Of a stretch of 64,000 bases of DNA, positions 6,344-60,572 are shown piece by piece (the stretch's first letter is position 1; each line of letters starts with the position of its first letter). The DNA lies in contig NZ_CANSMR010000006.1 in NCBI RefSeq assembly GCF_947648125.1, forward strand, positions 124,001 to 188,000, written 5' to 3'. A program made the position numbers and the translations under genes. The notes beneath the pieces are model-generated. The model saw only the letters and a list, made by a program, of their open reading frames with translations, did not search any database and had not been told where the DNA came from. The stretch comes from an uncultured Bradyrhizobium sp. (GTDB lineage Bacteria; Pseudomonadota; Alphaproteobacteria; Rhizobiales; Xanthobacteraceae).

Positions 6344-6429
6344 CCCCAAAAATTGATGTGATAGAAGGGGGCTTAATGTTAATCCGGTGAGATAGTTCGC
6401 ACGTGCATATCGAAGACACCCTGCCGGTC

Positions 6430-9789: not shown

Positions 9790-9807
9790 ACGCGCCGCCG
9801 CGGAGCA

Positions 9808-9960
9808 TCAATCCAGCGTGATGTCGTGCTGCTCCGTCAGCCGGGCGAGGAACGGCATATCGACGAAGCTTGCCACCAGGAAGACGGCGACCAGCGCTAG
9901 CCGGAAGACTAAGCTGCGTCCGTGCGCGACCTCAACCGGCCGAACTGGCTGCGCAGCACC
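9808..9960 (-). pseudogene. Possible orphan C-terminal coding remnant
   Basis: On the minus strand, immediately after the VanZ-like gene and overlapping its 3' end in another frame, an open stretch translates to about 50 residues with a hydrophobic segment (LVFRLALVAVFLVASFVDM) and the end LTEQHDITLD before a stop. It has no start codon or ribosome site of its own. It may be the tail of a membrane protein truncated by deletion, or chance. I do not recognise the family. Confidence 0.3.
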
Positions 9961-45236: not shown

Positions 45237-45671
45237 TTACGCTGGCACGGCGTCCTTCTTCGACGCGGAAGTTTCCTCGTCGAACGCGGCCGCGATGTCG
45301 CGCATGCTGACGACGCCGATCAGGCTGTAATTGTCGATCACGGGCACGTGGCGAATGTGGTGCTTGGTCATGAGATGACGGATGTGCTCGAGCGTGTCGC
45401 TCGAGGTGCACGACACCAGCTGCTGCACCGAGACCAGCTGCGAGACCTTCATGCTGGCGCCCGCGGCGCCGTGCTCGGCAATCGCGCGCACCACGTCGCG
45501 CTCGGTGAACATGCCGACGGCGGTGTTGCCCTCGGTGCGAACGACATCCTTGACCACGAGCGCGCTGATATTGCTGGCGCGCATCAATTGCGCGGCGATC
45601 GCCACCGTCTCGTTCATGCGAACCGTGGCGACGCGAGGGGTCTTCTTGCGCAGGATATCTCCGACTTGCAT
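45237..45671 (-). CDS. Two-CBS-domain protein under the oxalate operator
   Basis: 144 residues, two CBS motifs: VGDILRKKTPRVATVRMNET...ALVVKD...VGMFTERDVVRAI and VSQLVSVQQLVSCTSSDT...HVPVIDNYSLIGVVSMRDI. Such proteins bind adenine nucleotides or related ligands and act as stand-alone sensors. ATG 45671 has an AGGAGG-like site upstream. The 17-bp palindrome at 45704-45720 is in its promoter, so it is probably induced with the oxalate genes. Its job in oxalate metabolism is not known. Confidence 0.9.
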   Translation of the reverse strand: MQVGDILRKKTPRVATVRMNETVAIAAQLMRASNISALVVKDVVRTEGNTAVGMFTERDVVRAIAEHGAAGASMKVSQLVSVQQLVSCTSSDTLEHIRHLMTKHHIRHVPVIDNYSLIGVVSMRDIAAAFDEETSASKKDAVPA

Positions 45672-45703: not shown

Positions 45704-45720
45704 TGGTATACAAAATGCCA
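45704..45720 (-). promoter_or_regulatory. GntR-type operator, CBS gene promoter
   Basis: TGGTAT-ACAAA-ATGCCA. On the minus strand a TTGACA -35 box (45728-45723) stands 2 bp upstream of the palindrome, and CAGAAT is at the -10 position after a 17-bp spacer. It matches the five other copies of TGGYAT-N5-ATRCCA in the window. Confidence 0.82.
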
Positions 45721-45870
45721 ATTGTCAACGCCGCCGTGACTGGAATCTACCACCTGGAAACAGCCGAAATAGGCAGAGTCGCTGACGTTTCAGACGATTG
45801 TGACCTGTTGTGAGCGGGCAGGCCATCGGCCGCTCAAGGTCCTTGTGGTATCTGGCATCCCTGTCGGGTC

Positions 45871-45900
45871 AAACGAAAGAGGCGCACCGAAGTGCGCCTC
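45871..45900 (-). terminator. Rho-independent terminator after first OFA transporter
   Basis: GAGGCGCAC (45879-45887) and GTGCGCCTC (45892-45900) form a perfect 9-bp stem with a CGAA-type loop, followed on the minus strand by TTTCGTTT. It is downstream of the transporter gene at 46044-47360, beyond the repeat at 45939. Confidence 0.75.
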
Positions 45901-45938
45901 CATCCGTTCCGTGAAAAGCTCGGGACGACATTTGCTCC

Positions 45939-46021
45939 GTCATTGCGAGGAGCGAAGCGACGAAGCAATCCATCCCTCGCCGGGGGGATAAATGGATTGC
46001 TTCGCTCCGCTCGCAATGACG
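45939..46021. repeat. Palindromic repeat (CATTGCGAG type), copy 2
   Basis: CATTGCGAGGAGCGAAGCGA and its inverted partner ending at 46021 repeat the element at 27122-27205. It lies between the OFA transporter stop and its terminator. The 372-bp gap 45672-46043 therefore holds the CBS promoter with its operator, the terminator and this repeat, with no gene. Confidence 0.8.
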
Positions 46022-46043
46022 GCTAGAGAGTGGCGCGCTTCTT

Positions 46044-47360
46044 TCAAGCGGTCTTGGCGTTCGTCGCGGTCTCGGCTGCGGCGGCAGCCTCGTTGCCGTT
46101 GATGAAGGCGCGGCGCATCGGCTTGATCACGAACAGCGCCATCAGCGCGGCGGTGGCATTGAGCGCGACCGCGATCACAAACACCGCCTGCCAGCCATAG
46201 CTGGCGGCAACGATGCTGGCGGCCGGCACCAACAGCGCGGCGGTGCCCTTTGCGGTGTAGAGCATGCCGTTGTTGGTGGTCGCGAACTTCGAGCCGAAGG
46301 TGTCGCCGGAGGTCGCCGGGAACAACGAGTAGATCTCGCCGAACACGCCGAAATAGACCGCGGTCGCCAGCACGAACACCAGCGGGTTGTGGCCCCAGGT
46401 GGACAGCGTCAGCAGCATCAGCGCGCCGGTACCGAACGCGATGAACATGGTGTGCTCGCGGCCGATATTGTCGGAGACCCAGCCGAAGAACGGCCGTCCG
46501 AAGCCGTCGAAGATGCGGTCGAGCGAGATCGCAAAGGTCAGCGCGGCCATCTGGAAGCCGGCAAGCGAGACCGGCGTGGTGGCGATCTTGTAGTCGTGCG
46601 CGATCGGCGCGATCTGCGCCGCCGCCATCAGGCCGCCGGAGGCGACCATCACGAACACCAGATACATCACCCAGAAGATCGGGCTGCGCAGCACCTGCGG
46701 CGGCGTGAAGTCGATCTTGGTCTGCGGCAGGTTGAGCTGCTTCTTCTTCGGCGGGATCGTGACCGCAGGCTTCTGGATGAAGAACGCGAGCAGGAACACG
46801 ATCAGGCCTTGCCCGATTCCGAAATCGAAGAACGCGGTCTGATAGCCGCTCGAGGCGATCATGTTGGCGATCGGCACCACGGTCAGCGCAGCGCCGGCGC
46901 CGAAGCCTGCGGCGGTTGCGCCGGCGGCGAGGCCGCGGCGATCGGGAAACCATTTCAGCGCATTGCCGACGCAGGTGCCGTACACCGAGCCGGCGCCGAT
47001 GCCACCGATGACAGCCGCGGCGTAGAGCAGGGTGAGTGAGTCAGCGTAGGAGTTCAGCACCCAGGACAGCGTGATCATGACGCCGCCGAACATGATGACG
47101 ATCCGCGGGCCGTATTTGTCGACGAACCAGGCCTCGACCGGCACCAGCCAGGTCTCCGTCACCACGAAGATCGTGAAGGCGAACTGGATCGCCGCGCGGC
47201 CCCAGTGATGCGCGCCGTCGATCGGATCGACGAACAGCGTCCAGCCATATTGCAGGTTGGCGATCATCGCCATGCAGACGATGCCCATGACGAGCTGAAG
47301 CCAGCGGAAGCCACTGGACGAAGGTTGTGCTTGTGTTACGGCGGCATTGCTGGAAACCAT
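46044..47360 (-). CDS. OFA-family (oxalate/formate antiporter) MFS transporter 1
   Basis: 438 residues, 12 membrane helices. Family signs are YGWTLFVDPI, WLVPVEAWFVDKYGPR (MFS loop 2-3), GGIGAGSVYGTCVGNALKWFPDRRGLAAG, and FDGFGRPFFGWVSDNIGRE. ATG 47360 has GGGAGGA five bases upstream. A longer frame to 47429 would run toward the operator. It most likely imports oxalate, perhaps in exchange for formate as OxlT does; substrate inferred from co-regulation with oxc and frc. Confidence 0.92.
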   Translation of the reverse strand: MVSSNAAVTQAQPSSSGFRWLQLVMGIVCMAMIANLQYGWTLFVDPIDGAHHWGRAAIQFAFTIFVVTETWLVPVEAWFVDKYGPRIVIMFGGVMITLSWVLNSYADSLTLLYAAAVIGGIGAGSVYGTCVGNALKWFPDRRGLAAGATAAGFGAGAALTVVPIANMIASSGYQTAFFDFGIGQGLIVFLLAFFIQKPAVTIPPKKKQLNLPQTKIDFTPPQVLRSPIFWVMYLVFVMVASGGLMAAAQIAPIAHDYKIATTPVSLAGFQMAALTFAISLDRIFDGFGRPFFGWVSDNIGREHTMFIAFGTGALMLLTLSTWGHNPLVFVLATAVYFGVFGEIYSLFPATSGDTFGSKFATTNNGMLYTAKGTAALLVPAASIVAASYGWQAVFVIAVALNATAALMALFVIKPMRRAFINGNEAAAAAETATNAKTA

Positions 47361-47445
47361 CAAATCCTCCCGAGCGCGCCTGGTCTTGTTGTGACCCAGT
47401 GTCGCAATTCTTGTGGCGTATCGTCGCAAGCGCTTAGTCGGAGGT

Positions 47446-47462
47446 TGGTATACTATATTCCA
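47446..47462 (-). promoter_or_regulatory. GntR-type operator, OFA transporter 1 promoter
   Basis: TGGTAT-ACTAT-ATTCCA, one mismatch from TGGYAT-N5-ATRCCA. On the minus strand a TTGCTT box (47470-47465) stands 2 bp before the palindrome. Located 86 bp upstream of the start codon. Confidence 0.78.
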
Positions 47463-47560
47463 GAAAGCAAGCCCATCTTTCTGCTGCGTCGCAACAAAAC
47501 TGGCATACGAAGCGCCGGTTCGGGCGCGTATCCGAGCTCCTTAAGGGACGCCGGAAAATG

Positions 47561-47585
47561 AAAACGCCCGGCGTTGGCCGGGCGC
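47561..47585 (-). terminator. Rho-independent terminator after second OFA transporter
   Basis: CGCCCGGC (47565-47572) pairs with GCCGGGCG (47577-47584), loop GTTG; on the minus strand it is followed by TTTTCATTTT. It follows the stop of the transporter gene at 47614. Confidence 0.85.
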
Positions 47586-47613
47586 TTTCGTCAGCTGAAG
47601 AGTGGCGCGTTGC

Positions 47614-48909
47614 TTAGGCCATCGCCGCCGATTTCTCGACCACGATTTTCCGCCAAGGCTTGAGCACGGCGATCGCAAGCAGCGAGGCAAGGATGTTGGC
47701 GCCGGCTGCGATGATGAACACGTTGTCCCAATGGCCCGACGACTGCTGCATGTAATTGGCGATCGGCACAAGGAGCGCAGCAGTGCCTTTCGCGGTGTAG
47801 AGCAGGCCCGCATTGGTCGTCGCGAACTTTGCGCCGAATGTGTCGGTGCAGGTCGAGGGGAAGAGCGAGTAGATCTCACCCCAGGCGAAGAACACGAAGC
47901 CCGAGAGCAGCACGAACCAGACCGGGTCGTGGCCCCAGAGGTAGAGCATCCAGATGCCGAGGCCTTCCATGCCGAAGGCGATGAACATCGTGTTCTCGCG
48001 GCCGATCATGTCGGAGATCCAGCCGAAGAACGGACGCGTCAGACCGTTGAGGACGCGGTCGATGGTGGCCGCGAAGGTCACGGCCGTCATCGTCACCGCC
48101 ATCAGCGTGACCGGCACGCTGTCGACCTTCCAGTCGACCGCGATAGGCTTCAGGTTCGCCGTCACCATCAGGCCGCCGGCGCCGACGATCACGAACATGA
48201 AGTACATCAGCCAGAAGATCGGCTGCCGCAGCACTTCGGTCGGCTGATAGTTGCGTCGGGTCTGGATGATGTTGGCATTCGCGACGACGGCCGGCACCTG
48301 ACCGGCCTTCGGCGCGAGCAGGAAGAAGGCGAGCAGCACGATGATGATGCCCTGGCCGAGACCGAAATAAAGGAAGGTGGTCTGGAAGCCGGAGTCCTTG
48401 ATCATCGCCTGGATCGGCGCGACCGTGAGCGCGGAGCCCGCGCCGAAACCGGCTGCGGTGATGCCCGCCGCAAGACCGCGCTTGTCGGGAAACCATTTCA
48501 GCGCGTTGCCGACGCAGGTGCCATAGACGCCGCCGGCGCCGATGCCGGCGATGATCATGCCGAGATAGTAGCCGTTCAGCGAGGTCGCCTGCGCGTTGAT
48601 CGCCCACCCGATCGCGCAGAGAATGCCGCCGATCAGCACGACGAGGCGCGGACCATATTTATCGACGAACCAGCCTTCGACCGGCACCAGCCAGGTCTCG
48701 AACAGCACGAACAGCGTGAAGGCCCACTGGATCGATGCGCGATCCCATCCGAATTTCTTCTGGATGTCGGGGACGAAGAACGTCCACCCGTATTGATAGT
48801 TTGCGATCATCACCATTGCGGCGACGCCGATCGCAAGTTGCGTCCAGCGATAGGCATCGCTGACACGTGCGGCCGCGGGGGCCGCAGTTGCATGAACCAT
48901 GTCCGACAT
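47614..48909 (-). CDS. OFA-family (oxalate/formate antiporter) MFS transporter 2
   Basis: 431 residues, clearly a paralogue of the gene at 46044-47360 (shared NYQYGWTFFVPDI, WLVPVEGWFVDKYGPR, GGVYGTCVGNALKWFPDKRG, GLTRPFFGWISDMIGRE). ATG 48909 has GGGAGGA upstream. It has its own operator and terminator and so forms a separate transcription unit. Likely oxalate or formate transport; why two copies are kept is unknown. Confidence 0.92.
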   Translation of the reverse strand: MSDMVHATAAPAAARVSDAYRWTQLAIGVAAMVMIANYQYGWTFFVPDIQKKFGWDRASIQWAFTLFVLFETWLVPVEGWFVDKYGPRLVVLIGGILCAIGWAINAQATSLNGYYLGMIIAGIGAGGVYGTCVGNALKWFPDKRGLAAGITAAGFGAGSALTVAPIQAMIKDSGFQTTFLYFGLGQGIIIVLLAFFLLAPKAGQVPAVVANANIIQTRRNYQPTEVLRQPIFWLMYFMFVIVGAGGLMVTANLKPIAVDWKVDSVPVTLMAVTMTAVTFAATIDRVLNGLTRPFFGWISDMIGRENTMFIAFGMEGLGIWMLYLWGHDPVWFVLLSGFVFFAWGEIYSLFPSTCTDTFGAKFATTNAGLLYTAKGTAALLVPIANYMQQSSGHWDNVFIIAAGANILASLLAIAVLKPWRKIVVEKSAAMA

Positions 48910-48963
48910 TGATCCTCCCAGTGCGCGCTTTGTCATTCTGCTTGTGGCGCGGCTCGGTCATCT

Positions 48964-48980
48964 TGGTATTTGATATGCCA
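48964..48980 (-). promoter_or_regulatory. GntR-type operator, OFA transporter 2 promoter
   Basis: TGGTAT-TTGAT-ATGCCA, extended to CTTGGTAT...ATGCCAAG. On the minus strand TTGAAC (48988-48983) stands 2 bp before it, and CAAGAT is at -10 after a 17-bp spacer. Located 55 bp upstream of the start codon. Confidence 0.83.
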
Positions 48981-49064
48981 AGGTTCAAGCTGACGCAGAG
49001 GTCGCGTGCGCATATGCCGCAGAGAACTCAAGGCGGTCACCGCGGTGAGAGTAATTCAGCGCGC

Positions 49065-49095
49065 AAAAAAAATGGCCCCGAAAATCGGGGCCATT
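49065..49095 (-). terminator. Rho-independent terminator after the 45-codon gene
   Basis: ATGGCCCCGA and TCGGGGCCAT form a near-perfect stem with an A-A-A loop; on the minus strand a run of eight T follows. It is 75 bp beyond the stop codon of the small gene at 49170-49307, which defines a transcript of about 290 bases together with the promoter at 49365-49390. Confidence 0.88.
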
Positions 49096-49169
49096 GGTCG
49101 AAGGTTCAATGCACGTCGCGCGTCGCGACGAAACAGTCTCGGTGAAGCGTGTGCAGAATCCTTCAGGCC

Positions 49170-49307
49170 TCAGAGGCCGAAGCGCGGCAGGTCGCCATTA
49201 CGGTTCGCGATTTCCGCGCTCTTCATCAGCAGGCGGTCGATCGTGGCCATCAGGCGGCCGAACAGGGTGGAGGAGGGCGCGAGCGCGAGTGCAGAAGTCT
49301 TGGACAT
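49170..49307 (-). CDS. 45-residue protein in the oxalate regulon
   Basis: Reads MSKTSALALAPSSTLFGRLM then ATIDRLLMKSAEIANRNGDL and PRFGL. Codons show strong third-position G/C (for example CTG, CTC, GCG, GGC), as in core genes here. AAAGGGG lies 7-10 bases before ATG 49307. The middle (LFGRLMATIDRLLMKSAEIA) would make an amphipathic helix; there is no membrane segment and no Cys. Its promoter carries an operator like those of oxc/frc and the transporters, and a strong terminator follows. Function unknown; I do not recognise a named family. Confidence 0.78.
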   Translation of the reverse strand: MSKTSALALAPSSTLFGRLMATIDRLLMKSAEIANRNGDLPRFGL

Positions 49308-49366
49308 TGGTGTCCCCTTTGGCTGGAGGGCCAGCAACGGGCCGGCTCATCATCTGCAGCCAAATT

Positions 49367-49383
49367 ATGTATACCAGATGCCA
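49367..49383 (-). promoter_or_regulatory. GntR-type operator, 45-codon gene promoter
   Basis: ATGTAT-ACCAG-ATGCCA on the plus strand. The right half is perfect; the left half matches 4 of 6. On the minus strand TTGTCT (49390-49385) stands 1 bp before it and CATAAT (49369-49364) overlaps its end. Located 60 bp upstream of the small gene's start codon. Confidence 0.65.
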
Positions 49384-49585
49384 GAGACAATGGACTTGTT
49401 TGCATAGCAGCATACGCGATTGTGCAATGCAACAAGATAGGTGGGGTTGGCATCCCAGATTGAAGGGGAGCGCATTGAAACCACGGCCAAGTCCAAGCAA
49501 TCGCGGGCCTTCGCCAGATCCAGCAATCCTGCTGCTCTTGCGCGGTGCCCTTCGATGCGGCCGGACCGACGCCGTCGCTGCCGTC

Positions 49586-49616
49586 ATAAAGAAAGGCCGC
49601 CGAATGCGGCGGCCTT
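49586..49616 (-). terminator. Rho-independent terminator after DUF2147 gene
   Basis: AAGGCCGCCG and CGGCGGCCTT form a perfect 10-bp stem with loop AATG (49593-49616); the minus strand then reads TTCTTTAT. It follows the stop of the DUF2147 gene at 49672. The 364-bp gap 49308-49671 holds this terminator and the promoter of the 45-codon gene, with no other gene. Confidence 0.8.
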
Positions 49617-49671
49617 GAGTGACTGGGTTTGCTTTTCTTCTTGGCCGATGAAGGGTCGGGGCCAGATCCCT

Positions 49672-50175
49672 TCACCGCGTCCAGTCTTCGCCCGCGCACA
49701 GCGTTCCCATGCAGCCGCGAACGTTCAGCGTGCCCGACGACACCAGCGTCACCGAGCTCTCATAGGTCTTGCCGTCATCGGCGTTGTAGATCCTGCCGGC
49801 CCATTTGTTCGGGCCTGCGGGCTGCATGTTGATGAAGAGCGAGATGCCCATCACCGGCCGGGTCCGCAGCGTGGGATCGGCATTCTTGTCGTCGCGCTGC
49901 GGCTTGCCGGTGGCCTTGTCGGTCGGCTCCTTCAGCCAGACGACGCGGCCGCACAGCGCGCTGCCGCAGCGGTGGACCTTGATCCTGGCGTCACCGGACT
50001 GGGTCAGCCAGACGCCGGCCGGATCGTTGGCCTTGTCGTTGGCTTTGGCGGCATCGGCGGCGCTGCCGAGCAGTGGAATGTAGAACGCTGCCACGATCAG
50101 GCGGCGCGTGAGGTGAGCGCGAATCAGCTGTTTCAGGGCCTTGGCGAGGCCGTCATTATCTGGGGGTAACGTCAT
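49672..50175 (-). CDS. DUF2147 secreted protein
   Basis: 167 residues. An N-terminal hydrophobic stretch (RRLIVAAFYIPLLGSAADA) looks like an export signal with a long N-region. The mature part has DPAGVWLTQSGDARIKVHRC, GSALCGRVVWLKEP and GRIYNADDGKTYESSVTL, the DUF2147 lipocalin-like pattern. ATG 50175 has GGTGGA upstream. It is divergent from the DUF2975-XRE pair, and they share an AT-rich intergenic region with palindromes. Role of the family is unknown. Confidence 0.88.
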   Translation of the reverse strand: MTLPPDNDGLAKALKQLIRAHLTRRLIVAAFYIPLLGSAADAAKANDKANDPAGVWLTQSGDARIKVHRCGSALCGRVVWLKEPTDKATGKPQRDDKNADPTLRTRPVMGISLFINMQPAGPNKWAGRIYNADDGKTYESSVTLVSSGTLNVRGCMGTLCAGEDWTR

Positions 50176-50188
50176 TATCCACCTTCTT

Positions 50189-50216
50189 CATGAAAAATTT
50201 CATGATAAACATGAAA
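50189..50216. promoter_or_regulatory. CATGAAA repeated half-sites between divergent genes
   Basis: CATGAAAAATTTCATG (50189-50204) is a near-perfect palindrome, and a further CATGAAA lies at 50210-50216. The region is AT-rich and lies between the DUF2147 gene and the DUF2975-XRE operon, so it may be bound by the XRE protein encoded there. Confidence 0.5.
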
Positions 50217-50304
50217 TAAATCACGTTTAAGGTTGAGTCAACAACATTACCGCAGCATGATGCTGCCCGGCCGTAACGGCCTGCATGGGCAAAAAATTAT
50301 TCGG

Positions 50305-50871
50305 ATGGATGCGATGAGGAAATCGGTTCGTGAGCAGCGCCAGCTTTGGTTTCGCCGGCTCGATCGGACGTTCTGGGTGATCTGGGCCGCGCTGCCGGTG
50401 GTGCTGTGGCTGGCCTATTACCGCAGCACGACTGCCGCGGGCGCGATCGCCGAAAGCCTCACCGCCGAGCAGGCGAAATGCGCGGCCATCGTCGCCGACC
50501 CGCTCACCATGTCGGCCAAGGGGCAGATGCTGTTCTGGGCGCTGTTCGCGCTTGGGGTATCGTTTTATGCCGTGTTGATCGGCATCCTTCATCGCATGGT
50601 GAACCGATTCGCCAATGGGCGAATCTTCGTGTCGGAAACCTTGCAGGGTGTGTGGTGGATGGGGATCTTCCTGGTGGTCTGGCCGTTTGTCGATACGATC
50701 ACCACCAACGCGGTCGCCTATGCCTTGTACAAGCTCGGCGACATCAAGTTCTTCCTGCCGAGCTACGGCGTCGACGTCGGCACCATCGCAGGCGGCGTTT
50801 TCCTGATGGCGCTGAAGTTCGTGATCGAGCACGCCATCCTGCTGCAGTCCGAAAACGAGCTCACGATCTGA
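50305..50871 (+). CDS. DUF2975 membrane protein
   Basis: About 188 residues, four membrane helices (FWVIWAALPVVLWLAYY, MLFWALFALGVSFYAVLIG, VWWMGIFLVVWPFVDTI and GTIAGGVFLMALKFVIEHA). DUF2975 proteins are regularly paired with a small XRE regulator, as here. Start codon uncertain among ATG 50305, 50314 and an earlier frame to 50233. It is followed after 5 bp by the regulator gene. Function unknown. Confidence 0.8.
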   Translation: MDAMRKSVREQRQLWFRRLDRTFWVIWAALPVVLWLAYYRSTTAAGAIAESLTAEQAKCAAIVADPLTMSAKGQMLFWALFALGVSFYAVLIGILHRMVNRFANGRIFVSETLQGVWWMGIFLVVWPFVDTITTNAVAYALYKLGDIKFFLPSYGVDVGTIAGGVFLMALKFVIEHAILLQSENELTI

Positions 50872-50876
50872 GGTGA

Positions 50877-51122
50877 ATGCTGGTGCCCATCGTGGTGAAC
50901 CTCGATGTCATGCTTGCAAAGCGCAAGCGCCGCCTCGGAGACCTCGCGGAGGCGATCGGCATCTCGATCCAGAACCTGTCGATCCTGAAAACCGGCAAGG
51001 CGAAGGCGATGCGCTTCTCGACGCTGTCGGCGATCTGCCGCGAGCTGGACTGTCGGCCGGGCGACATTCTGGAATATGTGCCGGGCGATGAGGGTGAGGC
51101 CGAAGGCGGCGAGGGCGGATGA
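50877..51122 (+). CDS. XRE-family (YozG-like) regulator
   Basis: 81 residues with a helix-turn-helix: VNLDVMLAKRKRRLGDLAEA, IGISIQNLSILKTGKAKAMR and STLSAICRELDCRPGDILEY. GAGGTGA precedes ATG 50877. The short acidic/Gly tail is unremarkable. Probably an autoregulator of the DUF2975 operon; palindromes at 50189-50216 are candidate sites. Confidence 0.9.
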   Translation: MLVPIVVNLDVMLAKRKRRLGDLAEAIGISIQNLSILKTGKAKAMRFSTLSAICRELDCRPGDILEYVPGDEGEAEGGEGG

Positions 51123-51570
51123 TCGAGCGGGATTGATCGCGCGCGAGTGTCCCCGAGCACACCCTGGTCCATTGGTCCAATGTCGGCGTGTCAGATTTTG
51201 CTTCTCGGCTGCCCCTTCGAGTTCCGCCGCCCCTCGTTAATCACGGCAGTGGTTTGCCTCTTTGCCTAGACAAGATGCAAATCGCACTAAGGTCCGCTTC
51301 TGATCTGAAGTGGTCATCAGAGCGACAGCGAGAGTTCTTGCGCCAACAGGGAAAATGATTGCTGATGATCTCACCGAAACGCGGCGGGATCGGCCCGATT
51401 CGTATTCCGGATGCCGCCGCGCCTAGTGTACCATCGCTGTTGGGTCAACGGTGCTGCCCGATGGCCCCTCGTTCCGAAGTTGGCTAGCGCCACTCTACTC
51501 ACGATCGTGCGGCCATGTTTTGGTCAAAACTGCGTCCGCATTGTTGAGATGCCCACTGCAAAGGCTTGCG
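51123..51570. other. 448-bp intergenic stretch, no gene seen
   Basis: Between the XRE gene and the MASE1 kinase. No hairpin terminator, repeat or conserved small frame was recognised. The long upstream extension of the kinase frame (from 51451) lacks domain similarity, so it is treated as leader. Confidence 0.45.
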
Positions 51571-54174
51571 ATGGAAAGGGCAACGTTCGCCAAGGCCAAG
51601 ATTGTCGCTTTTGGCGACGCTCGGAGCGTTGCGACCTACGCGGTCGAAATCCTGATAGTTGCCGCGATTTATGCTGGTCTTGCCGAATCCGCGCGGTTCC
51701 TTCCCGCAATAAATCCAACGGCGACACCGCTATGGCCACCAACCGGGCTTGCCCTCGCGCTGGTCCTGCTGCGCGGCTACCGGATCTGGCCCGCGGTCCT
51801 GGTGGGGGCCGTCTCGCCTTACCTCATGGCCGACCGATCGCTCCTGGAGATCGGCGCCGCCGGGATCGGCAGCCTCCTTGCCGCATGTGCCGGGACATGG
51901 CTGATCGGCCGCTGGTCGAACGGTCGCCAGACGTTTGCCACGCCGTCCGGTGTCGCTAAGTTTGCAATCATTTCGTTTGCGCCGACCACGATGATCAGTT
52001 CAGCCATCGCCTTGGCCGGCTTCACGCTCACCAACGAATCGAGCTTTTCCGATTCTGTCGTCGCCGGGTTGACCTGGTGGCTTGCGGACGCCGCCGGGGC
52101 CCTGGTGATTGCTCCGGTCATCGTGCTCTGGGCGACGATGCCGTTACGCATTGCTTCCAGATGGGCGTCGTTGGAATCGATCACGGTCGCTGCTCTCGCT
52201 GGTATCATCGGGCTCGCTACTTACAGCCCGCTGATCGGTAGCGATCTCGTCAGCAACGGCCTCGACGTGTTGCTGCCACATCGCAGCCTTCTGGGCTTTC
52301 TGGTTCTGCTGCCCTTGATCTGGGCCGGTCTGCGCGGCGATCGATGCACCGTGGCGACGGCCGCGTTCATTTTCATCGGAACTGCCGTGTGGGGGTTCTC
52401 GGTGGGGAATGATCCATTTCCGAAAATCGATCCAAACGGTGCGCTGTTATCCTTGTTCGTGCTTTCGATCATCGTGTCGGCGCCTCCGCTTGCGCTGGCC
52501 GCGGCCAGCGCGACGCGCCAGGCCAGAGAAGCCCATTTGCTTTCAATCCAGGATCAGCTGAACGGTCAACTTGAACGGAAAGCCCTGGCGCTCGACAGCA
52601 TCAGACGGCACTTCCAGACCCTTATCGAGGGCGTTGTCGACTACGCAATCTTTGCGCTTGATCGAGAAGGACACGTGACGAGCTGGAATAGCACCGCTCA
52701 AAAGATCATCGGCTACAGCTCGGAAGAAATCATAGGCAAGCACTTCGGGATCTTCTATCGGCCGGACGAACGCCGCGCGGGTTCACCGACACACGCGCTG
52801 GAGTCGGCAATCGAAAGCGGCAAGTACGACGTAGAGGGTTGGCGTATCAGAAAGAATGGTACGCCGTTTTTCATCACGGGCTCAGTCTCTTCGAGCCATG
52901 ATGATGCAGGAAATCTGATCGGTTTTATCAGTATCCTGCGCGACGCGACGGAGCGCCGCGACGCGGAGGAGAAGCTGGTCCAGGCGCGCGAACAGCTCGC
53001 GATGTCTCAGAAGATGGAGGCAATCGGCAAGCTGACTGGCGGGATTGCACACGACTTCAATAATCTATTGATGATCATCGGAGGCAGTGCTCAGATATTT
53101 CAACGCCTGCTTGATCCAAAACTGCCAAAGGCCATCGAAGCCATACAAACCGCGGCCAAACGCGGCGAGAGCCTCACGCGCCAATTGTTGACATTCTCTC
53201 GTCACCAGCACCTCAGCCCGACGGTCGTCGATCTGAATGCGTCCATCAAGAACATGCGGACCATGATCGAGAGCTCGCTGCGCGGCAACATCGTGTACAA
53301 CGAGAACGTTGGCGACGGTGTTTCGCCGGTCAAGGTGGACCTCGCCGAGCTGGAGCTTGCGATCGTCAACATCGCCGTTAACGCGCGAGATGCAATGACA
53401 AGCGGCGGCACATTCACGTTGTCCGTCCACGCGGTCACCGCCAATCAGGAAACCGGCGGCGATCGGCGTGGCAAGGCCTTCTTTGCGATCACGCTTGGCG
53501 ATACGGGCACCGGTATTCCGCCAAATCTTCTGTCCAAGATGTTCGATCCGTTCTTCACGACCAAGGAGGTCGGCAAAGGGACCGGGCTCGGTTTGTCCCA
53601 GGTCTATGGTTTTGCGCACCAGGCGGGCGGAACCGTGACGGCAGACAGCAAGGTTGGACAAGGGACAACGATTACAATCTATCTGCCATCCTGTGCGGAC
53701 GAGCAAATCACCAGCAAGGAGCTCGCCGCTGCCCGGGCAAAGCCAAGGCAGCCGCCGCGGCAGACGGTTCTCGTTGTCGACGACAGCCCCGAAGTGGCGG
53801 ACGTGACATCCTCGCTGTTCGAGCATCTGGGTTATGAAACCATCTACCGAGATTCGGCCGAAGCGGCATTGAAGTTGCTCGATAGCGGTACAAGGATCGA
53901 TCTCGTCTTCAGCGATATCGTCATGCCGGGGACCATCGATGGCGTCGGGCTCGCGAGAGAAGTTCGGTCGCGGTACCCCGGTTTGCCCATAGCCCTCACA
54001 ACCGGTTACAGCGACGCCGCAAAGGCAGCCCCGCCAAGCCTGAAAATCCTCCGCAAGCCGTTCGATACCGAGGCGCTCAGAGACTTTATCCAGGATCTTG
54101 CGCCGCCGAGATCGACGCGCTCATCCGGCGTACCTTTGGCGTCAAACACGACTGACGCTGTGCGCAGAAGCTGA
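51571..54174 (+). CDS. MASE1-PAS hybrid histidine kinase with receiver domain
   Basis: About 867 residues. MASE1 membrane sensor (~20-310; PLWPPTGLALALVLLRGYRI and WWLADAAGALVIAP), PAS (~345-465; YAIFALDREGHVTSWNSTAQ), kinase core with H box GKLTGGIAHDFNNLLMIIGG, and a CheY-like receiver (~735-855) with phospho-Asp in DLVFSDIVMPG and Lys in ILRKPFD. ATG 51571 has AAAGG six bases upstream; a GTG at 51451 is the earlier choice. No partner regulator nearby. It lies amid oxalate genes but no operator of theirs is seen upstream. Confidence 0.9.
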   Translation: MERATFAKAKIVAFGDARSVATYAVEILIVAAIYAGLAESARFLPAINPTATPLWPPTGLALALVLLRGYRIWPAVLVGAVSPYLMADRSLLEIGAAGIGSLLAACAGTWLIGRWSNGRQTFATPSGVAKFAIISFAPTTMISSAIALAGFTLTNESSFSDSVVAGLTWWLADAAGALVIAPVIVLWATMPLRIASRWASLESITVAALAGIIGLATYSPLIGSDLVSNGLDVLLPHRSLLGFLVLLPLIWAGLRGDRCTVATAAFIFIGTAVWGFSVGNDPFPKIDPNGALLSLFVLSIIVSAPPLALAAASATRQAREAHLLSIQDQLNGQLERKALALDSIRRHFQTLIEGVVDYAIFALDREGHVTSWNSTAQKIIGYSSEEIIGKHFGIFYRPDERRAGSPTHALESAIESGKYDVEGWRIRKNGTPFFITGSVSSSHDDAGNLIGFISILRDATERRDAEEKLVQAREQLAMSQKMEAIGKLTGGIAHDFNNLLMIIGGSAQIFQRLLDPKLPKAIEAIQTAAKRGESLTRQLLTFSRHQHLSPTVVDLNASIKNMRTMIESSLRGNIVYNENVGDGVSPVKVDLAELELAIVNIAVNARDAMTSGGTFTLSVHAVTANQETGGDRRGKAFFAITLGDTGTGIPPNLLSKMFDPFFTTKEVGKGTGLGLSQVYGFAHQAGGTVTADSKVGQGTTITIYLPSCADEQITSKELAAARAKPRQPPRQTVLVVDDSPEVADVTSSLFEHLGYETIYRDSAEAALKLLDSGTRIDLVFSDIVMPGTIDGVGLAREVRSRYPGLPIALTTGYSDAAKAAPPSLKILRKPFDTEALRDFIQDLAPPRSTRSSGVPLASNTTDAVRRS

Positions 54175-54331
54175 CCGGTCGCACCATCGCGGGCATTGCC
54201 CTGCGGTGCCGACGCAGTGATCGAACAGGCTATCGTCGCAAAAGCTGAATGGATTGTCCGCATCTCGCCCTGGGCAGACATGAGGCATCGAGCTCATCAA
54301 TGTCCGCCATTGATGCGGCGAGCGGCAGTCG

Positions 54332-54365
54332 AAACAAAAATGGCCGCGGTTGCCCGCGGCCATTT
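54332..54365 (-). terminator. Rho-independent terminator after frc
   Basis: AAATGGCCGCGG and CCGCGGCCATTT form a 12-bp stem with loop TTGC; the minus strand then reads TTTTTGTTT. It ends the gntR-oxc-frc unit. Confidence 0.88.
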
Positions 54366-54388
54366 GTAGTCTCGTCAGTATGCCGCCG

Positions 54389-55666
54389 TTACTCGGCCGC
54401 CTGCTTGCGCGGCGGATCGAGTGCGCCGGAGCCGTGGATCTCGGCGACCTGGTGATCGCTGAAGCCGAGCACCTCGCGCAGGATTTCGTCAGTGTGCTCG
54501 CCGAGCAGCGGCGAGCGCTGAACGTCGCTCGGCGAATCCGACAGCTTGATCGGGTTGCCCACCGAGATGTACTTGCCGCGGGTCGGGTGATCGACCTCGA
54601 CCACGGTACCGGTCGCGCGCAGCGACTGGTCTTCCGCGATCTCCTTCATCGACAGGATCGGGCCGCAGGGGATGTCGTCCTTGTTGAGGATCTCCATCGC
54701 CTCGAACTTGGTCTTGGTCATCGTCCACTGCTCGATGCGGGCGAAGATCTCGTTGAGGCGCGGCAGGCGGGCCGGCGGCTTGGCGTAGTTCGGATCGGTC
54801 TTCCAGGTCGGCTCGCCGATCACGTCGCAGATCTTCTCCCAAACCTGCGCCTGGGTGATGAAGTAGATGTAGGCGTTCGGGTCGGTCTCCCAGCCCTTGC
54901 ACTTCAGGATGCGGCCGGGCTGGCCGCCGCCGGAATCGTTGCCGGCGCGCGGCACCGCGTCGCCGAACGGAATGCCTTCGCCGAACTGGCTGTATTCCCT
55001 GAGCGGACCATGGGCGAGGCGCTGCTGGTCGCGCAGCTTGACGCGCGCCAGGTTGAGCACGCCGTCCTGCATCGCGGCGGTGACCTTCTGGCCCTTGCCG
55101 GTCGTGGTGCGCTGATGGAGAGCGGCCAGGATGCCGATCGCAAGATGCAGGCCGGTGCCGGTGTCGCCGATCTGCGCGCCGGTGACCAGCGGCAGGCCGT
55201 CGCGGAAGCCGGTGGTCGAGGCGGCGCCGCCGGTGCACTGCGCGACGTTCTCGTAGACCTTGCAATCCTCATACGGGCCGGGACCGAAACCCTTGATCGA
55301 GGCGACGATCATCTTCGGGTTGAGGCTGTGGATCTTCTCCCAGGGGAAGCCCATGCGATCGAGCACGCCCGGGCCGAAATTCTCGACCAGCACGTCGCAC
55401 TGCTTGATCAGCGCGGTCAGCACTTCCTTGCCCTTCGGGTTCTTGGTGTCGAGCGTGATCGAGCGCTTGTTGTGGTTCAGCATGGTGAAATACAGGCTGT
55501 CCACGTTCGGGATGTCCTGCAACTGGCCGCGCGTAATGTCGCCGACGCCGGGACGCTCGACCTTGATCACGTCGGCGCCGAACCAGGCCAGCAATTGCGT
55601 GCAGGTCGGACCCGACTGGACGTGGGTGAAATCGAGAATGCGAACGCCCTTGAGCGCCTTGGTCAT
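54389..55666 (-). CDS. frc: Formyl-CoA:oxalate CoA-transferase
   Basis: 425 residues, class III CoA-transferase of typical length. The catalytic Asp is in [11 protein letters not shown] (residue 168, equal to Asp169 of Oxalobacter Frc) and the glycine loop [12 protein letters not shown] is present near residue 260. It moves CoA from formyl-CoA to oxalate, giving oxalyl-CoA and formate in the cytoplasm. ATG 55666 is the family start. It follows oxc by 59 bp on the same strand and ends at the terminator at 54332-54365. Confidence 0.96.
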
Positions 55667-55725
55667 ATCTATTGCTCCGTACTCTATCTGCCCCTGCACC
55701 CGCAGGGAGTGGTGGGGTTAGGGGG

Positions 55726-57462
55726 TTACTTCTTCTTCAGAACGCTCTGAGGATTGAGGTTGCCGATGCGGCCGCTCTCCGAGCCCGCCGCCGGATCGAT
55801 CACGGCGTTGATCAAGGTCGGCTTGCCGGAATCCAGTGCCGCATTGACCGCGCGCTTCAGCTCGTCGGGCGAGGTGGCGTTGACGCCGACGCCGCCGAAG
55901 GCTTCCATCATCTTGTCGTAGCGCGAGCCCTTGACGAACACGGTGGTCGCCGGATCGTCGCCGGCGCTGTTGACGTCGGTGCCGCGATAGATGCCGTCAT
56001 TGTTGAAGATCACGACGCAGATCGGCAGCTTGTAGCGGCAGATCGTCTCGACCTCCATCCCGGAGAAGCCGAACGCGCTGTCGCCTTCGACCGCGAGCAC
56101 GGGCAGGCCAGTCTCGACCGCGGCCGCGATCGAATAGCCCATGCCGATGCCCATCACGCCCCAGGTGCCGACGTCAAGCCGCTTGCGTGGCTTGTGCATG
56201 TCGACGACGCCGCGGGCGAGGTCGAGCGTGTTGGCGCCTTCGTTGACGAAGATGGTGTCGGGGCGTTCCGCGATGATGGTGCGCAGCGCGCCGAGCGCAC
56301 CGTGATAATCCATCGGCGAGGCGTTGCTCATCAGCTTCGGCGCCATCTTGGCGACGTTGTCGTCGCGCTTCTTCGCCACGGTGGCGAGCCAGTCGCTCGG
56401 TGCGGCCGACCAGTTTGCGCCCATGGCGTCGAGGAAGGCGGACACGCAGGAGCCGATATCGCCGACGACGGGGGCGACGATCTCGACGTTGGAATCCATT
56501 TCCTTCGGCTCGATGTCGACCTGGATGAACTTCTTCGGGGCCTCGCCCCAGGTCTTGCCCTTGCCGTGCGACAGCAGCCAGTTGAGGCGGGCGCCGATCA
56601 GCATCACGACGTCGGCTTCCTTCAGCACGGTCGAGCGCGCCGCACCCGCGCATTGCGGATGCAGATCGGGCAGCAAGCCCTTGGCCATGCTCATCGGCAG
56701 GAACGGCACGCCGCTCTTCTCGACGAAATTCTTGATCGCCTCGTCGGCCTGCGCATAGGCAGCGCCCTTGCCGAGGATGATCAGCGGGCGTTTCGCGTTC
56801 TTCAGCACGTCGAGCGCGCGCTTGACCGCCGACGGGGCAGGCAGCTGCGCCGGCGCAGCATCGATCACCTTGACCAGCGACTTCTCGCCGGCAGCCGCGT
56901 CCATGACCTGGCCGAACAGCTTTGCGGGGAGATCGAGATAGACGCCGCCGGGACGGCCTGACACCGCGGCGCGGATCGCGCGCGCGAGGCCGATGCCGAT
57001 GTCCTGGGCGTGCAGCACGCGGAACGCCGCCTTGCAGAGCGGCTTGGCGATCGCGAGCTGGTCCATCTCCTCATAGTCGCCCTGCTGCAGGTCGACGATC
57101 TCGCGCTCGGACGAGCCCGAGATCAGGATCATCGGGAAGCAGTTGGTGGTGGCGTGGGCAAGGGCAGTGAGGCCGTTGAGGAAGCCGGGCGCCGACACCG
57201 TGAGGCAGACGCCGGGACGCCTGGTCAGGAAGCCGGCGATCGAGGCCGCATATCCGGCATTCTGCTCGTGGCGGAACGAGAGCACGCGAATGCCCGCCGC
57301 CTGGGCCATGCGGCCCAGGTCCGTGATCGGGATACCCGGCACACCATAGACGGTGTCGATGCCGTTGAGCTTGAGCGCATCGATGACAAGGTGGAAGCCA
57401 TCGGTTAGTTCCTGCTCGGTGCCCGGTGCCTCGGACTTCGTAGCGGTATTCAGCATCGGCAT
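55726..57462 (-). CDS. oxc: Oxalyl-CoA decarboxylase
   Basis: 578 residues, thiamine diphosphate enzyme. [15 protein letters not shown] holds the catalytic Glu; [18 protein letters not shown]...FNN is the GDG-N type Mg/ThDP motif. [15 protein letters not shown] and [18 protein letters not shown] are oxalyl-CoA decarboxylase features. It converts oxalyl-CoA to formyl-CoA and CO2. ATG 57462 or 57456 is the start (GGGAG just upstream). It lies 67 bp after gntR and 59 bp before frc. Confidence 0.96.
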
Positions 57463-57529
57463 CGTCTCCCTGATCGTTCTTTGTTCGGACGATCTGATCG
57501 TCGTCTGAAGCGGGTGTGGACTCTCAAAC

Positions 57530-58261
57530 TTACGTGAACAACTCTTGGCCATGCGCCTCGACATAGGCGGCAAGCCCAAGGGTGTGATCGCGGGCGCGCT
57601 TTTCGGCGAGCTCGGTGTCGCGTGCTTCCAGCGCCTCGATGATCCCGAGATGCTCGGGCAGCGAGGTCGCGGTGCGGTCCTTGCGGCCGATCGTGAGCTG
57701 GCGATAGCCGCGCACATGCAGCAGCAGGTCATTGGTGAGGTCGACCAGCACAGGCGATTCCGACAGCGAGATCAGCGCCTGGTGGAAGGCGATGTTGGCC
57801 TTGGAATATTCCTCGACGTGATCCTGCGGCAGGCGGTCGTCGCTGAAGTCCTTGAAGAAGTCGCGCAGCGCAGTGATGTCCTTCTTGCGCGCCGTGGTCG
57901 TGATCAGGCGTGCGGCCATGCTCTCCAGCGCCGCCCAGGCACGGATCATGTCGACGATCTCCGCCTTGGTGCGGCGGACCACGACGATGCCGCGGCGCGG
58001 CACGGTCTTCACGAATCCGTCCTGCTCGAGCATCGCGATCGCTTCGCGGATCGGCGTGCGGCTGACGCCGAGGCGCTCGGACAATGCGCGCTCGTCGAGC
58101 ATCACGGGCTCCGGCGTTGCGTAGATGTCCATCTTCAGGATCGCTTCCTTCAAGGCCTCATAGGCCTTGTTCTTGAAGCTCGTCTCCGGCGCGATCCGGA
58201 CGATGGCGATATCTGTGTCAGCCATGGTGGGCGACGCCTTGGTCTGTTTCGGTTCTGGCAC
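57530..58261 (-). CDS. GntR/FCD regulator of the oxalate genes
   Basis: 243 residues. The winged helix is [35 protein letters not shown] and [20 protein letters not shown]; an FCD ligand domain follows ([36 protein letters not shown]). GTG 58261 has GGAGGAG upstream; ATG 58225 lacks a site. It is first of the gntR-oxc-frc unit and its promoter contains TGGCATGCCAAATACCA. It probably represses itself and all genes with the palindrome; the inducer may be oxalate or an oxalate-derived CoA ester (inference). Confidence 0.92.
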
Positions 58262-58318
58262 GACTCGTCTCCTCCTCTTGGAGACGTCTTCTTAGCAGAA
58301 GAAATTACCTTAGATTTT

Positions 58319-58335
58319 TGGCATGCCAAATACCA
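58319..58335 (-). promoter_or_regulatory. GntR-type operator, gntR-oxc-frc promoter
   Basis: TGGCAT-GCCAA-ATACCA. On the minus strand TTGACA (58344-58339) stands 3 bp upstream and CCAAAA is at the -10 position after 17 bp. It is 58 bp before the gntR start codon. Confidence 0.85.
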
Positions 58336-58400
58336 GAATGTCAAGCTGCCTATATTTTTCGGCATTTTTGGACATCGACGGACCTTGACAATTACGTTTT

Positions 58401-58417
58401 TGGCATACCAAATGCCA
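58401..58417 (+). promoter_or_regulatory. GntR-type operator, acyl-CoA synthetase promoter
   Basis: TGGCAT-ACCAA-ATGCCA is a perfect 17-bp palindrome in the half sites. TTGACA at 58385-58390 is the -35 box; the operator starts 10 bp after it and covers the -10 position. It is 26 bp upstream of the start codon. Confidence 0.87.
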
Positions 58418-58442: not shown

Positions 58443-60572
58443 ATGTCAAATTCGAAGGATGCGGTCCGCAAAATTCTCGATGCGGTCAGGGCCGACAAGC
58501 GCACGAGCCTCACCGCGCCCGAAGGCAAGGTGGTCTGCGACGCCTACGGCATTCCGGTGCCGAAAGAGGGCGTCGCCAAGTCGGCCGCCGAGGCTGCCCG
58601 GATCGCCTCCGACATGGGCTTCCCGGTCGTGATGAAGATCGTCTCGCCCGACATCCTCCACAAGACCGAGGCGGGCGGCGTGATTGTCGGCGTCAAGAGC
58701 GCAGCGGACGCCGAGAAGAGCTACGAGACCATTCTGGCCAACGCCCGGAAGTACAAGGCCGATGCCAAGATCGAGGGCATCCAGGTCCAGCAGATGCTGG
58801 GCGGCGGCACCGAGGTGATCGTCGGTTCGATCACCGACGGCTCGTTCGGCAAGCTGGTCGCCTTCGGCCTCGGCGGCGTGCTGGTCGAAATCCTCAAGGA
58901 CATCACCTTCCGCCTCGCGCCGGCGACCAAGGAAGATGCGCTGTCGATGCTCGACGGCATCCAGGCCCATGAGATGCTGAAGGGCGTGCGCGGCGGCGAG
59001 CCGGTCAATCGCGAGGCGCTCGCCGACGTCATCGTCAAGGTGTCGCAGCTGGTCAGCGATTTCCCCGAGATCGTCGAGCTCGACCTCAATCCAGTGTTCG
59101 CCACCAGCAAGAACGCGATCGCCGCCGACGTCCGCATCGTTGTCGACTTCGACTACAAGCCGCGTCCGGCGCCGCGTCCGACCGAAGAGATCGTCGCGGC
59201 GATGAGCCGCATCATGCAGCCGAAGGGCGTCGCGGTCATCGGCGCCTCCGCCGAGGACGGCAAGATCGGCAACTCCGTGATGAAGAACCTCATCAACGGC
59301 GGCTACAAGGGCGAGATCTATCCGATCCACCCGAAGGCCGCGGAGATCCTCGGCTACAAGGCCTACAAGAGTGTCAAGGACGTGCCCGGCGTGATCGACA
59401 CGGCGGTGTTTGCGATCCCGGCGAAATTCGTCGCCGGCGCGCTCGTCGAGTGCGGCGAGAAGAAAATCCCCGGTGCGGTGCTGATTCCCTCGGGTTTTGC
59501 CGAAGCCGGCGCGCCCGAATTGCAGGCCGAGATCGTCGAGGTCGGCAAGAAGTACAACATCCGCCTGATGGGGCCGAACATCTACGGCTTCTATTATACC
59601 CCGGCCAATCTTTGCGCCACGTTCTGCACCGCCTATGACGTCAAGGGCCACGCGGCGCTGTCGTCGCAGTCGGGCGGTATCGGCATGGCGATCATCGGCT
59701 TCTCGCGTTCGGCGAAGATGGGCGTGTCGGCGATCGTCGGTCTCGGCAACAAGTCCGACATCGACGAGGACGATCTGCTCGCCTTCTTCGAGCAGGACCC
59801 CAACACCAATCTGATCGCGCAGCACTGCGAAGACCTGAAGGACGGCCGTGCCTTCGCGGAGGCCGCCAAACGCGTCTCCAAGAAGAAGCCGGTGGTCGTG
59901 CTCAAGGCCGGCCGCACTTCTGCGGGTGCCAAGGCAGCGTCGTCGCACACCGGCGCGCTCGCCGGCAACGACAAGATCTATGAGGATGTGTTCAAGCAGT
60001 CCGGCGTGATCCGTGCTCGCTCGCTCCGGCAGCTGCTCGAATTCGCCCGCGGCGTACCGGTGCTGCCGACGCCGAAGGGCGAGAATGTCCTGATCATCAC
60101 CGGTGCCGGCGGCTCCGGCGTGCTGCTCTCCGACTCGGTCGTCGACAACGGCCTGTCGCTGATGCAGATGCCGCCGGATCTCGATGCGGCGTTCCGCAAG
60201 TTCATCCCGCCGTTCGGCGCGGCCGGAAATCCTGTGGATATCACCGGCGGCGAGCCGCCGATTACCTACGTCAACACGGTGAAACTCGGTCTCTCCGATG
60301 AGCGCATCCACGCGTTGATCCTCGGCTACTGGCACACCATCGTGACGCCGCCGATGGTGTTCGCGCGCAACATGGTCGAGGTGAAGAAGGAGATGGAAGC
60401 GAAGGGCTTCGTGAAGCCGATCGTCGCCTCGCTCGCCGGCGACGTCGAGGTCGAGGAAGCCGCCGAGTATCTCTACCAGAACGGCATTCCGGCCTACGCC
60501 TATTCGACCGAACTGCCGGTCGAGGTGCTCGGCGCCAAGTACAAGTGGGCCCGCGGCGCGGGTCTGCTCTGA
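58443..60572 (+). CDS. NDP-forming acyl-CoA synthetase in the oxalate regulon
   Basis: 709 residues. Order: ATP-grasp domain first (~10-235; GFPVVMKIVSPDILHKTEAGG), then CoA-binding Rossmann domain (~250-345; PKGVAVIGASAEDGKIGNSV), then the succinyl-CoA ligase-like domain (~385-540; LSSQSGGIGMAIIG) with a candidate phospho-His in ASSHTGALAGND (~502). It makes an acyl-CoA from an acid, CoA and ATP, or the reverse with ATP gain. AGGAGGAA precedes ATG 58443. It shares the divergent region with gntR and has its own operator and terminator. The substrate is not shown; oxalate or formate are candidates from context. Confidence 0.9.
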   Translation: MSNSKDAVRKILDAVRADKRTSLTAPEGKVVCDAYGIPVPKEGVAKSAAEAARIASDMGFPVVMKIVSPDILHKTEAGGVIVGVKSAADAEKSYETILANARKYKADAKIEGIQVQQMLGGGTEVIVGSITDGSFGKLVAFGLGGVLVEILKDITFRLAPATKEDALSMLDGIQAHEMLKGVRGGEPVNREALADVIVKVSQLVSDFPEIVELDLNPVFATSKNAIAADVRIVVDFDYKPRPAPRPTEEIVAAMSRIMQPKGVAVIGASAEDGKIGNSVMKNLINGGYKGEIYPIHPKAAEILGYKAYKSVKDVPGVIDTAVFAIPAKFVAGALVECGEKKIPGAVLIPSGFAEAGAPELQAEIVEVGKKYNIRLMGPNIYGFYYTPANLCATFCTAYDVKGHAALSSQSGGIGMAIIGFSRSAKMGVSAIVGLGNKSDIDEDDLLAFFEQDPNTNLIAQHCEDLKDGRAFAEAAKRVSKKKPVVVLKAGRTSAGAKAASSHTGALAGNDKIYEDVFKQSGVIRARSLRQLLEFARGVPVLPTPKGENVLIITGAGGSGVLLSDSVVDNGLSLMQMPPDLDAAFRKFIPPFGAAGNPVDITGGEPPITYVNTVKLGLSDERIHALILGYWHTIVTPPMVFARNMVEVKKEMEAKGFVKPIVASLAGDVEVEEAAEYLYQNGIPAYAYSTELPVEVLGAKYKWARGAGLL

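Follow-up and report, generated by a model that had tools for sequence, protein, structure and literature searches.

The stretch of DNA analysed here (the window; 64,000 nucleotides of an uncultured Bradyrhizobium sp., contig NZ_CANSMR010000006.1, positions 124,001 to 188,000) carries a gntR regulator gene beside genes for oxalate degradation, together with six copies of a palindromic element, approximately TGGYAT-N5-ATRCCA, which we propose to be operators of this regulator. The genes concerned are given below, with coordinates counted from the first nucleotide of the window.

57530..58261, minus strand: gntR, FCD-domain GntR regulator, 243 amino acids, GTG start (PF00392, 47.8 bits, cut-off 27; PF07729, 78 bits, cut-off 24.3)
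55726..57462, minus strand: oxc, oxalyl-coenzyme A (CoA) decarboxylase, 578 amino acids (TIGR03254, 1028 bits, cut-off 739.4)
54389..55666, minus strand: frc, formyl-CoA:oxalate CoA-transferase, 425 amino acids (TIGR03253, 754.1 bits, cut-off 504.2)
58443..60572, plus strand: acs, nucleoside diphosphate (NDP)-forming acyl-CoA synthetase, 709 amino acids (assigned from Pfam domains; no NCBIfam cut-off was reached in an NCBIfam profile search)
45237..45671, minus strand: cbs, CBS-domain protein, 144 amino acids (PF00571, 81.9 bits, two matched stretches)
46044..47360, minus strand: ofa1, oxalate/formate antiporter (OFA) family, 438 amino acids (TIGR04259, 646.5 bits, cut-off 335)
47614..48909, minus strand: ofa2, oxalate/formate antiporter family, 431 amino acids (TIGR04259, 650.2 bits, cut-off 335)
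49170..49307, minus strand: orf45, conserved 45-residue protein (no Pfam or NCBIfam match)

The predicted operators and neighboring promoter elements are as follows. The six window sites supplied the scoring matrix, and a score of 17 served as the threshold.

45704..45720, minus strand: cbs operator, exact match, with the inner 10-mer TTGTATACCA on the minus strand
45723..45728, minus strand: predicted -35-like hexamer TTGACA, 2 base pairs (bp) before the cbs operator
45846..45862, minus strand: possible weak second cbs operator, two mismatches, score 13.2, 174 bp upstream of cbs
47446..47462, minus strand: ofa1 operator, TGGTATACTATATTCCA, one mismatch
48964..48980, minus strand: ofa2 operator, exact match
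49367..49383, minus strand: orf45 operator, ATGTATACCAGATGCCA, two mismatches
58319..58335, minus strand: gntR-proximal operator, exact match, containing the 10-mer TGGCATGCCA
58339..58344, minus strand: predicted -35-like TTGACA of gntR, which adjoins the site in relatives too
58385..58390, plus strand: predicted -35-like TTGACA of acs, 10 bp before the acs operator and present in relatives
58401..58417, plus strand: acs-proximal operator, exact match, containing the 10-mer TGGCATACCA, 82 bp from the gntR site

An earlier note on this DNA had described six TGGYAT-N5-ATRCCA sites, each in a promoter region and with none clearly elsewhere in the 64 kilobases (kb). All six sites are present where it placed them, but two of the six depart from that consensus. 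The four exact copies compare with 0.01 expected from 100 dinucleotide shuffles, and the 11 matches with up to two mismatches compare with 3.51 expected, a number reached in 0/100 shuffles. The promoter locations are borne out, with every site upstream of a start codon at distances of 26 to 140 bp (cbs, 33 bp; ofa1, 86 bp; ofa2, 55 bp; orf45, 60 bp; gntR, 58 and 140 bp; acs, 108 and 26 bp). The absence of the element elsewhere in the window holds for exact sites, but five more places match with two mismatches, including that at 45846, which coincides with a second cbs operator found 160 to 196 bp upstream in some relatives (for example at loci L091, L048, L072, L084, and L201). Nor are the five middle bases free, as the consensus had implied. 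Of 61 distinct sites, 39 (64%, a share somewhat favored by finding the sites with the window-derived matrix) contain a 10-mer, placed off-centre, that agrees with TGGYATRCCA in 9 or 10 of its bases, compared with 14% for a random middle. The operator thus appears typically to consist of an FCD-type 10-bp palindrome (TGGYATRCCA) and a third half-site 7 bp away.

Placement of the sites relative to the promoters is recurrent, and most begin 1 to 3 bp behind a -35-like TTG hexamer. Among distinct sites, the TTG is 8 bp ahead for ofa1 (11/11), ofa2 (28/28), and cbs (19/25), 9 bp ahead for gntR (40/69, with the gntR- and acs-side operators pooled), 7 bp ahead for orf45 (23/39), and 12 bp ahead for sucC (9/12), a gene outside the window that is discussed below. 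Most sites therefore fall in the spacer between the -35 and -10 boxes, as expected of a repressor, and repression relieved by an oxalate-derived ligand is the most likely mode of control.

Conservation in relatives was examined at loci found by a search with the GntR protein only, from which the best 80 of 223 (76 of them titled Bradyrhizobium) make up the named loci. The frc, oxc, and acs genes lie beside gntR in 79, 78, and 79 of the 80, respectively, and two sites precede gntR in all 80 (87/87 when seven further loci, fetched around known sites, are included). The paired sites are 81 bp apart in 68 of the 87 loci, 82 bp in 13, 80 bp in 2, 71 bp in 1, and 90 bp in 3, and the DNA between the gntR and acs sites varies among relatives. 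These steps of about one turn suggest that the paired sites lie on the same helix face, albeit from few independent events. Three more distant loci outside the 87 (L198, L202, and L203) have none or one site before gntR.

A pooled set of upstream regions came from the window, the named loci, and regions partly fetched for holding a site. Sites scoring at least 17 are found upstream of gntR in 90/92 regions, acs in 89/89, cbs in 21/21, ofa in 49/56, and orf45 in 15/45 (median best score, 17.0), and are absent from the pooled regions upstream of frc (0/91), oxc (0/86), mdh (0/11), sucD (0/13), and nmo (0/7). Sites at gntR with none at oxc or frc fit a single gntR-oxc-frc transcript. The fds regions and most sucC regions in this set were fetched for their site, and only the counts from 30 genomes with protein-chosen targets, given below, apply to those two genes.

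Genome-wide, the motif is not common at unrelated genes, which the earlier note had named as an outcome that would refute it. The whole genome (8.57 megabases, with the window on contig C6) has seven exact matches, four of them in the window, versus one for a reversed control pattern, and 35 matches with up to one mismatch versus 7 for the control. The clear extra sites are at sucCD, a cbs-panE-like operon, and sdhCDAB, which by their metabolism fit oxalate use. An exact site at C18:84265 is 54 bp upstream of sucCD, with mdh adjacent, and another, at C27:82323, has a one-mismatch partner at 82433, the pair being flanked by an IclR gene on one side and a second cbs gene on the other. This second cbs product is 57% identical to that of the window, and its gene heads a run that encodes a panE-like protein, FAH, a third OFA protein, glycerate kinase, and pyruvate kinase (contig C27; positions 6240-6510 and 8855-10186 of locus L114); gcl-hyi-glxR follow the IclR gene beside the operon. 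The panE-like protein passes only 2-dehydropantoate reductase subfamily cut-offs, and its proposed role as oxalyl-CoA reductase draws on context and on published work; the adjacent IclR protein scores 282.4 with the BhcR model, below the cut-off of 350. At loci L191, L201, and L204, cbs and panE-fah sit within the gntR cluster, and the operon thus seems to have been split in the window genome.

A third extra site, TTGCATCTGGTATACCA at C18:147781 (L117, 6782-6798), has one mismatch and a score of 20.0, and is 160 bp upstream of sdhC in an sdhCDAB operon in which sdhD is assigned by position only. The sdhC gene was located in three congeners, of which two retain the 10-mer TGGTATACCA ahead of it and the third has one base of this 10-mer changed, but the full 17-bp site is absent from all three (best scores 6.1, 8.0, and 3.7); in a further genome, G135, sdhC was not found within the 100 kb searched. 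Because congeners keep or nearly keep the 10-mer without the full site, sdhCDAB is a lead rather than a settled member of the regulon. For fds, whose alpha subunit is encoded on contig C49 of the window genome (TIGR01591, 734.2 bits, cut-off 666.25) and belongs to an NAD (nicotinamide adenine dinucleotide)-linked formate dehydrogenase, the support comes from congeners. The controlled genes named in the earlier note keep the identities given there, but the regulon would exceed the six sites, taking in sucCD, the cbs-panE operon, perhaps sdh, and, in the eight congeners examined, fds.

Other matches have no firm place in the regulon. The exact match at C14:20106 is inside a coding frame and probably arose by chance, the site at C17:62268 lies within frames on both strands, and relatives at L175, L180, L181, and L186 also have exact sites inside frames; the exact sites of L194 and L199, and that at C89:67192 of genome G024, have no assigned target. 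At C12:139036 (L115, 6037-6053), where a TetR-like frame starts, a one-mismatch site retains the complete inner 10-mer; the gene 19 bp downstream of it matches ApbA below the threshold. Nothing supports direct control of gcl-hyi-glxR, there being no site before gcl. An exact site at L190 (genome G135; 3059-3075) is 72 bp before a gene for a BhcA-like aminotransferase (436 bits, cut-off 650); with a site in this one relative only and none in the window genome, we do not count the aminotransferase as a target.

Is the linked GntR protein the one that recognizes these sites? Across 149 family genomes we compared 48 with a strong gntR orthologue (E below 1e-80) and 20 without a match at 1e-20, leaving out 81 intermediate genomes. 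Exact sites average 4.5 per genome in the former and 0.3 in the latter (p = 6e-10, a value that ignores relatedness). The oxc gene, too, is missing from the 20 genomes lacking a gntR match (for 11, by subtraction), and the cleanest test is therefore a universally present gene, sucC. We used 30 hand-chosen genomes, 18 with gntR and 12 without, in which targets were picked by protein and not by site. The sucC gene is present in 30/30, and the operator is 54 to 59 bp upstream of it in 11/18 genomes with gntR and 0/12 without. Genome G119 has both gntR and the sucC operator, and six of its congeners have neither. Of the 30 genomes, 13 have fdsB, every one of them with gntR as well, and a site scoring at least 17 accompanies fdsB in 11/13, including all eight congeners, with two weaker. 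In loci of other families, sucD (79 to 87% identity) is near gntR in 7/18.

The association extends beyond the genus. Among 20 hand-chosen loci of other genera with oxc-adjacent gntR homologues (50 to 57% identical), TGGNAT-N5-ATNCCA is present 12 to 56 bp before gntR in 11/20, versus 0/1000 shuffles, and 5 of these 11 sites read TGGAATATTGTATNCCA. In families further away, sites with up to two mismatches precede gntR in 14/18 loci (four of them 141 to 276 bp from the start), compared with about 7% in shuffles. Within the window genome, the 15 other GntR loci have no site reaching 17 (best score, 15.0).

The GntR protein itself has the features of a GntR-family FCD (FadR-like) regulator, with an N-terminal GntR winged helix-turn-helix, a C-terminal FCD domain, and a palindrome at its own promoter; its best NCBIfam match, the phosphonate regulator phnR_burk (TIGR03338), scores 96.8 bits, below the cut-off of 271.5. 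Residues N156, H160, H204, and H226 are invariant in 24/24 sequences and align with Asn137, His141, His192, and His214 of Atu1419, the residues that hold zinc in that Agrobacterium fabrum protein (PMC7797058). A small acid bound to the predicted metal is a plausible ligand.

Taken together, we propose a dispersed oxalate regulon under a ligand-released FCD-type repressor, the GntR protein encoded at 57530-58261, and give this reading a probability of roughly 0.8, with binding, repression, ligand, and enzyme roles all predicted from sequence. Ligand-free GntR dimers would occupy the 17-bp operator and, because it is just behind the -35 box, would block RNA polymerase. Release would follow binding of an oxalate-derived ligand, either oxalate itself, oxalyl-CoA, or a near product, which the FCD-domain metal may hold. 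Uptake (OFA), CoA transfer (frc), decarboxylation (oxc), and, from the other contig, panE-like reduction to glyoxylate would then be switched on, and acs and sucCD (succinyl-CoA synthetase) would be expressed, as would formate dehydrogenase in the congeners examined. GntR would also regulate its own gene, by way of the two sites in the gntR-acs intergenic region. One switch sequence would thus, very probably, let one repressor turn on the whole oxalate program. Tentatively, and with the odds against it, we suggest further that sucCD (perhaps also sdhCDAB) has been captured under oxalate control so that succinyl-CoA primes the frc CoA transfer, that acs serves the same priming by ligating CoA to oxalate (or formate) in an NDP-forming reaction, and that the repressor bridges the gntR and acs operators on one helix face. 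For bridging of two palindromes by an Atu1419-type tetramer, the site spacing is compatible and says nothing stronger.

Several observations weigh against the proposed regulon. Two of the 92 gntR upstream regions have no site, the orf45 sites are weak, and the fds site of the window genome has two mismatches. Promoter placement is not uniform, with the commonest acs site having its TTG 16 bp ahead in at least 53/60 loci (35 of them also at 8 bp), and with fds having no fixed TTG offset. Within the pooled regions, gcl (0/22), hyi (0/17), and glxR (0/16) have no site of their own, and iclR (1/57) and panE (1/12) almost none. In the families further away, the exact form precedes gntR in only 2/18 loci. 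The sucC operator is absent from 7 of the 18 genomes with gntR; 4 of these 7 (G085, G110, G023, and G015) have a second sucC copy, about 8 to 10 kb from gntR in G110, G023, and G015 and about 43 kb in G085, that of G110 being inside the oxalate cluster behind ofa with no site directly before it. Finally, just one or two exact sites occur in 14 of the 48 strong-orthologue genomes, of which 13 have no oxc (nine by subtraction).

A first alternative concerns what GntR senses. Glyoxylate, formate, or succinyl-CoA status, in place of oxalate, could be the signal for a wider C2/C1 regulon, which would account for sites at sucCD, at sdhC in the window genome, and at the cbs-panE operon beside gcl and glycerate kinase, as well as those at fds and, in one case, the BhcA-like aminotransferase gene in relatives, and for the retention of gntR without oxc in 14 of the 48 strong-orthologue genomes (nine by subtraction). 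We consider this doubtful, because the 20 genomes without a gntR match have no oxc either and because frc, oxc, and acs adjoin gntR so consistently in the named loci. The oxc-less genomes with a strong orthologue include G026, G036, G041, G059, and G063, and frc and panE are both retained at the two oxc-less loci examined, L201 and L203; such genomes may have a solely reductive route for oxalate.

Two less probable alternatives concern the binding protein and its action. GntR might bind the sites as an activator or dual regulator that needs its ligand to recruit polymerase, in keeping with proposals that pathway regulators, the IclR-type BhcR for one, play dual roles (PMC11323563) and with the greater distance of the acs operator from its -35-like box; this we think unlikely, as most sites begin close behind the -35-like TTG and run toward the -10, where bound protein should block polymerase, and as the FCD relative Atu1419, with palindromes between or on the -35 and -10 boxes, is a described repressor (PMC7797058). 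That another FCD-GntR protein of the genome binds the sites, leaving the neighboring gntR a bystander, is very improbable. The genome does have 15 further GntR matches at E 1e-5, and one paralogue, on contig C64 (L107, 1644-1660), has a score-15 site, TGGAATACGGAATTCCG, just ahead of its own gene, from which it seems that FCD operators of the genome resemble each other; the sdh 10-mer that lacks the full third half-site in relatives could also belong to such a protein. However, no paralogue locus scores 17, the sites track the presence and absence of gntR across genomes, and they persist at the gntR promoter down to 50-57% identity.

Comparison of the proposed regulon with described systems shows both likeness and difference. 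Atu1419 (an FCD/VanR-type GntR repressor, PDB 6z74) shares the FCD domain with one Asn and three His residues, and it acts at a divergent promoter whose two palindromes overlap the -35 and -10 boxes or lie between them, its own gene being a target (PMC7797058). It differs in its 10-mer operator (ATGTATACAT), the 190 bp between its sites, its hydroxycinnamate genes, and its folate effector, compared with the 17-bp element, mostly 81- to 82-bp spacing, and oxalate genes described here. The GntR/FadR-subfamily regulons of Suvorova et al. 2015 (PMC4494728) have similarly palindromic FadR-type operators; the main text of that paper makes no mention of Bradyrhizobium, Rhizobiales, or formyl, and its 'oxal' mentions are not of oxalate regulons. 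NanR, also a FadR-subfamily GntR protein, has operators made of more than two TGGTATA half-sites (PMC8012715, PMC4494728), but these are direct repeats at sialic acid genes, whereas here an inverted 10-mer is joined by one extra half-site.

With regard to metabolism, BhcR and GlcR of Paracoccus (PMC11323563) also place alphaproteobacterial C2-acid metabolism under GntR- and IclR-type control, but their genes (for glycolate and glyoxylate use) and regulators differ from those here. The enzyme set resembles that of oxalate assimilation in Cupriavidus necator and Methylobacterium extorquens (panE2/apbA2, frc, oxc, and gcl; PMC7486775, PMC8411744), in which PanE2 is a putative oxalyl-CoA reductase and apbA2 its relative; the available text of these accounts names no GntR regulator, and 'GntR' does not occur in that of PMC7486775. 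In one or more of its cell fractions, Bradyrhizobium diazoefficiens has more of Frc, Oxc, Gcl, Hyi, tartronate semialdehyde reductase, and the NuoF-like blr2316 product on arabinose than on mannitol (PMC5996035, Table 2), a pattern that fits joint control; blr2316 corresponds, we presume, to the FdsB found here. Bradyrhizobium is reported to use oxalate, and Frc and Oxc are expressed in soybean nodules (PMC4926349). A search of the open-access literature, with subscription papers, RegPrecise, and supplementary files outside its scope, found no printed GntR-controlled oxalate regulon in Bradyrhizobium.

Two further features of orf45 merit description. It is conserved within the genus and present in at least 38 of the 80 named loci (a lower bound, because the loci end 10 kb from gntR), with a conserved, NGDLPRFGL-like C-terminus. 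In the window about 5 kb (49400-54380) separates orf45 from the end of frc, versus about 1.5 kb between the orf45 and frc starts at L193 and L196, which points to an insertion or rearrangement.

Oxalate is abundant around plants and fungi, and a defined operator makes the 'oxalate genes' of these bacteria a testable regulon. It suggests roles in oxalate use for the acyl-CoA synthetase and the 45-residue protein, and offers a clear regulator for oxalate-sensing constructs. It also predicts that sucCD, encoding a central enzyme, is under the control of a dietary signal, and the main interest, if this is true, would be the capture of a tricarboxylic acid cycle operon by an oxalate regulator.

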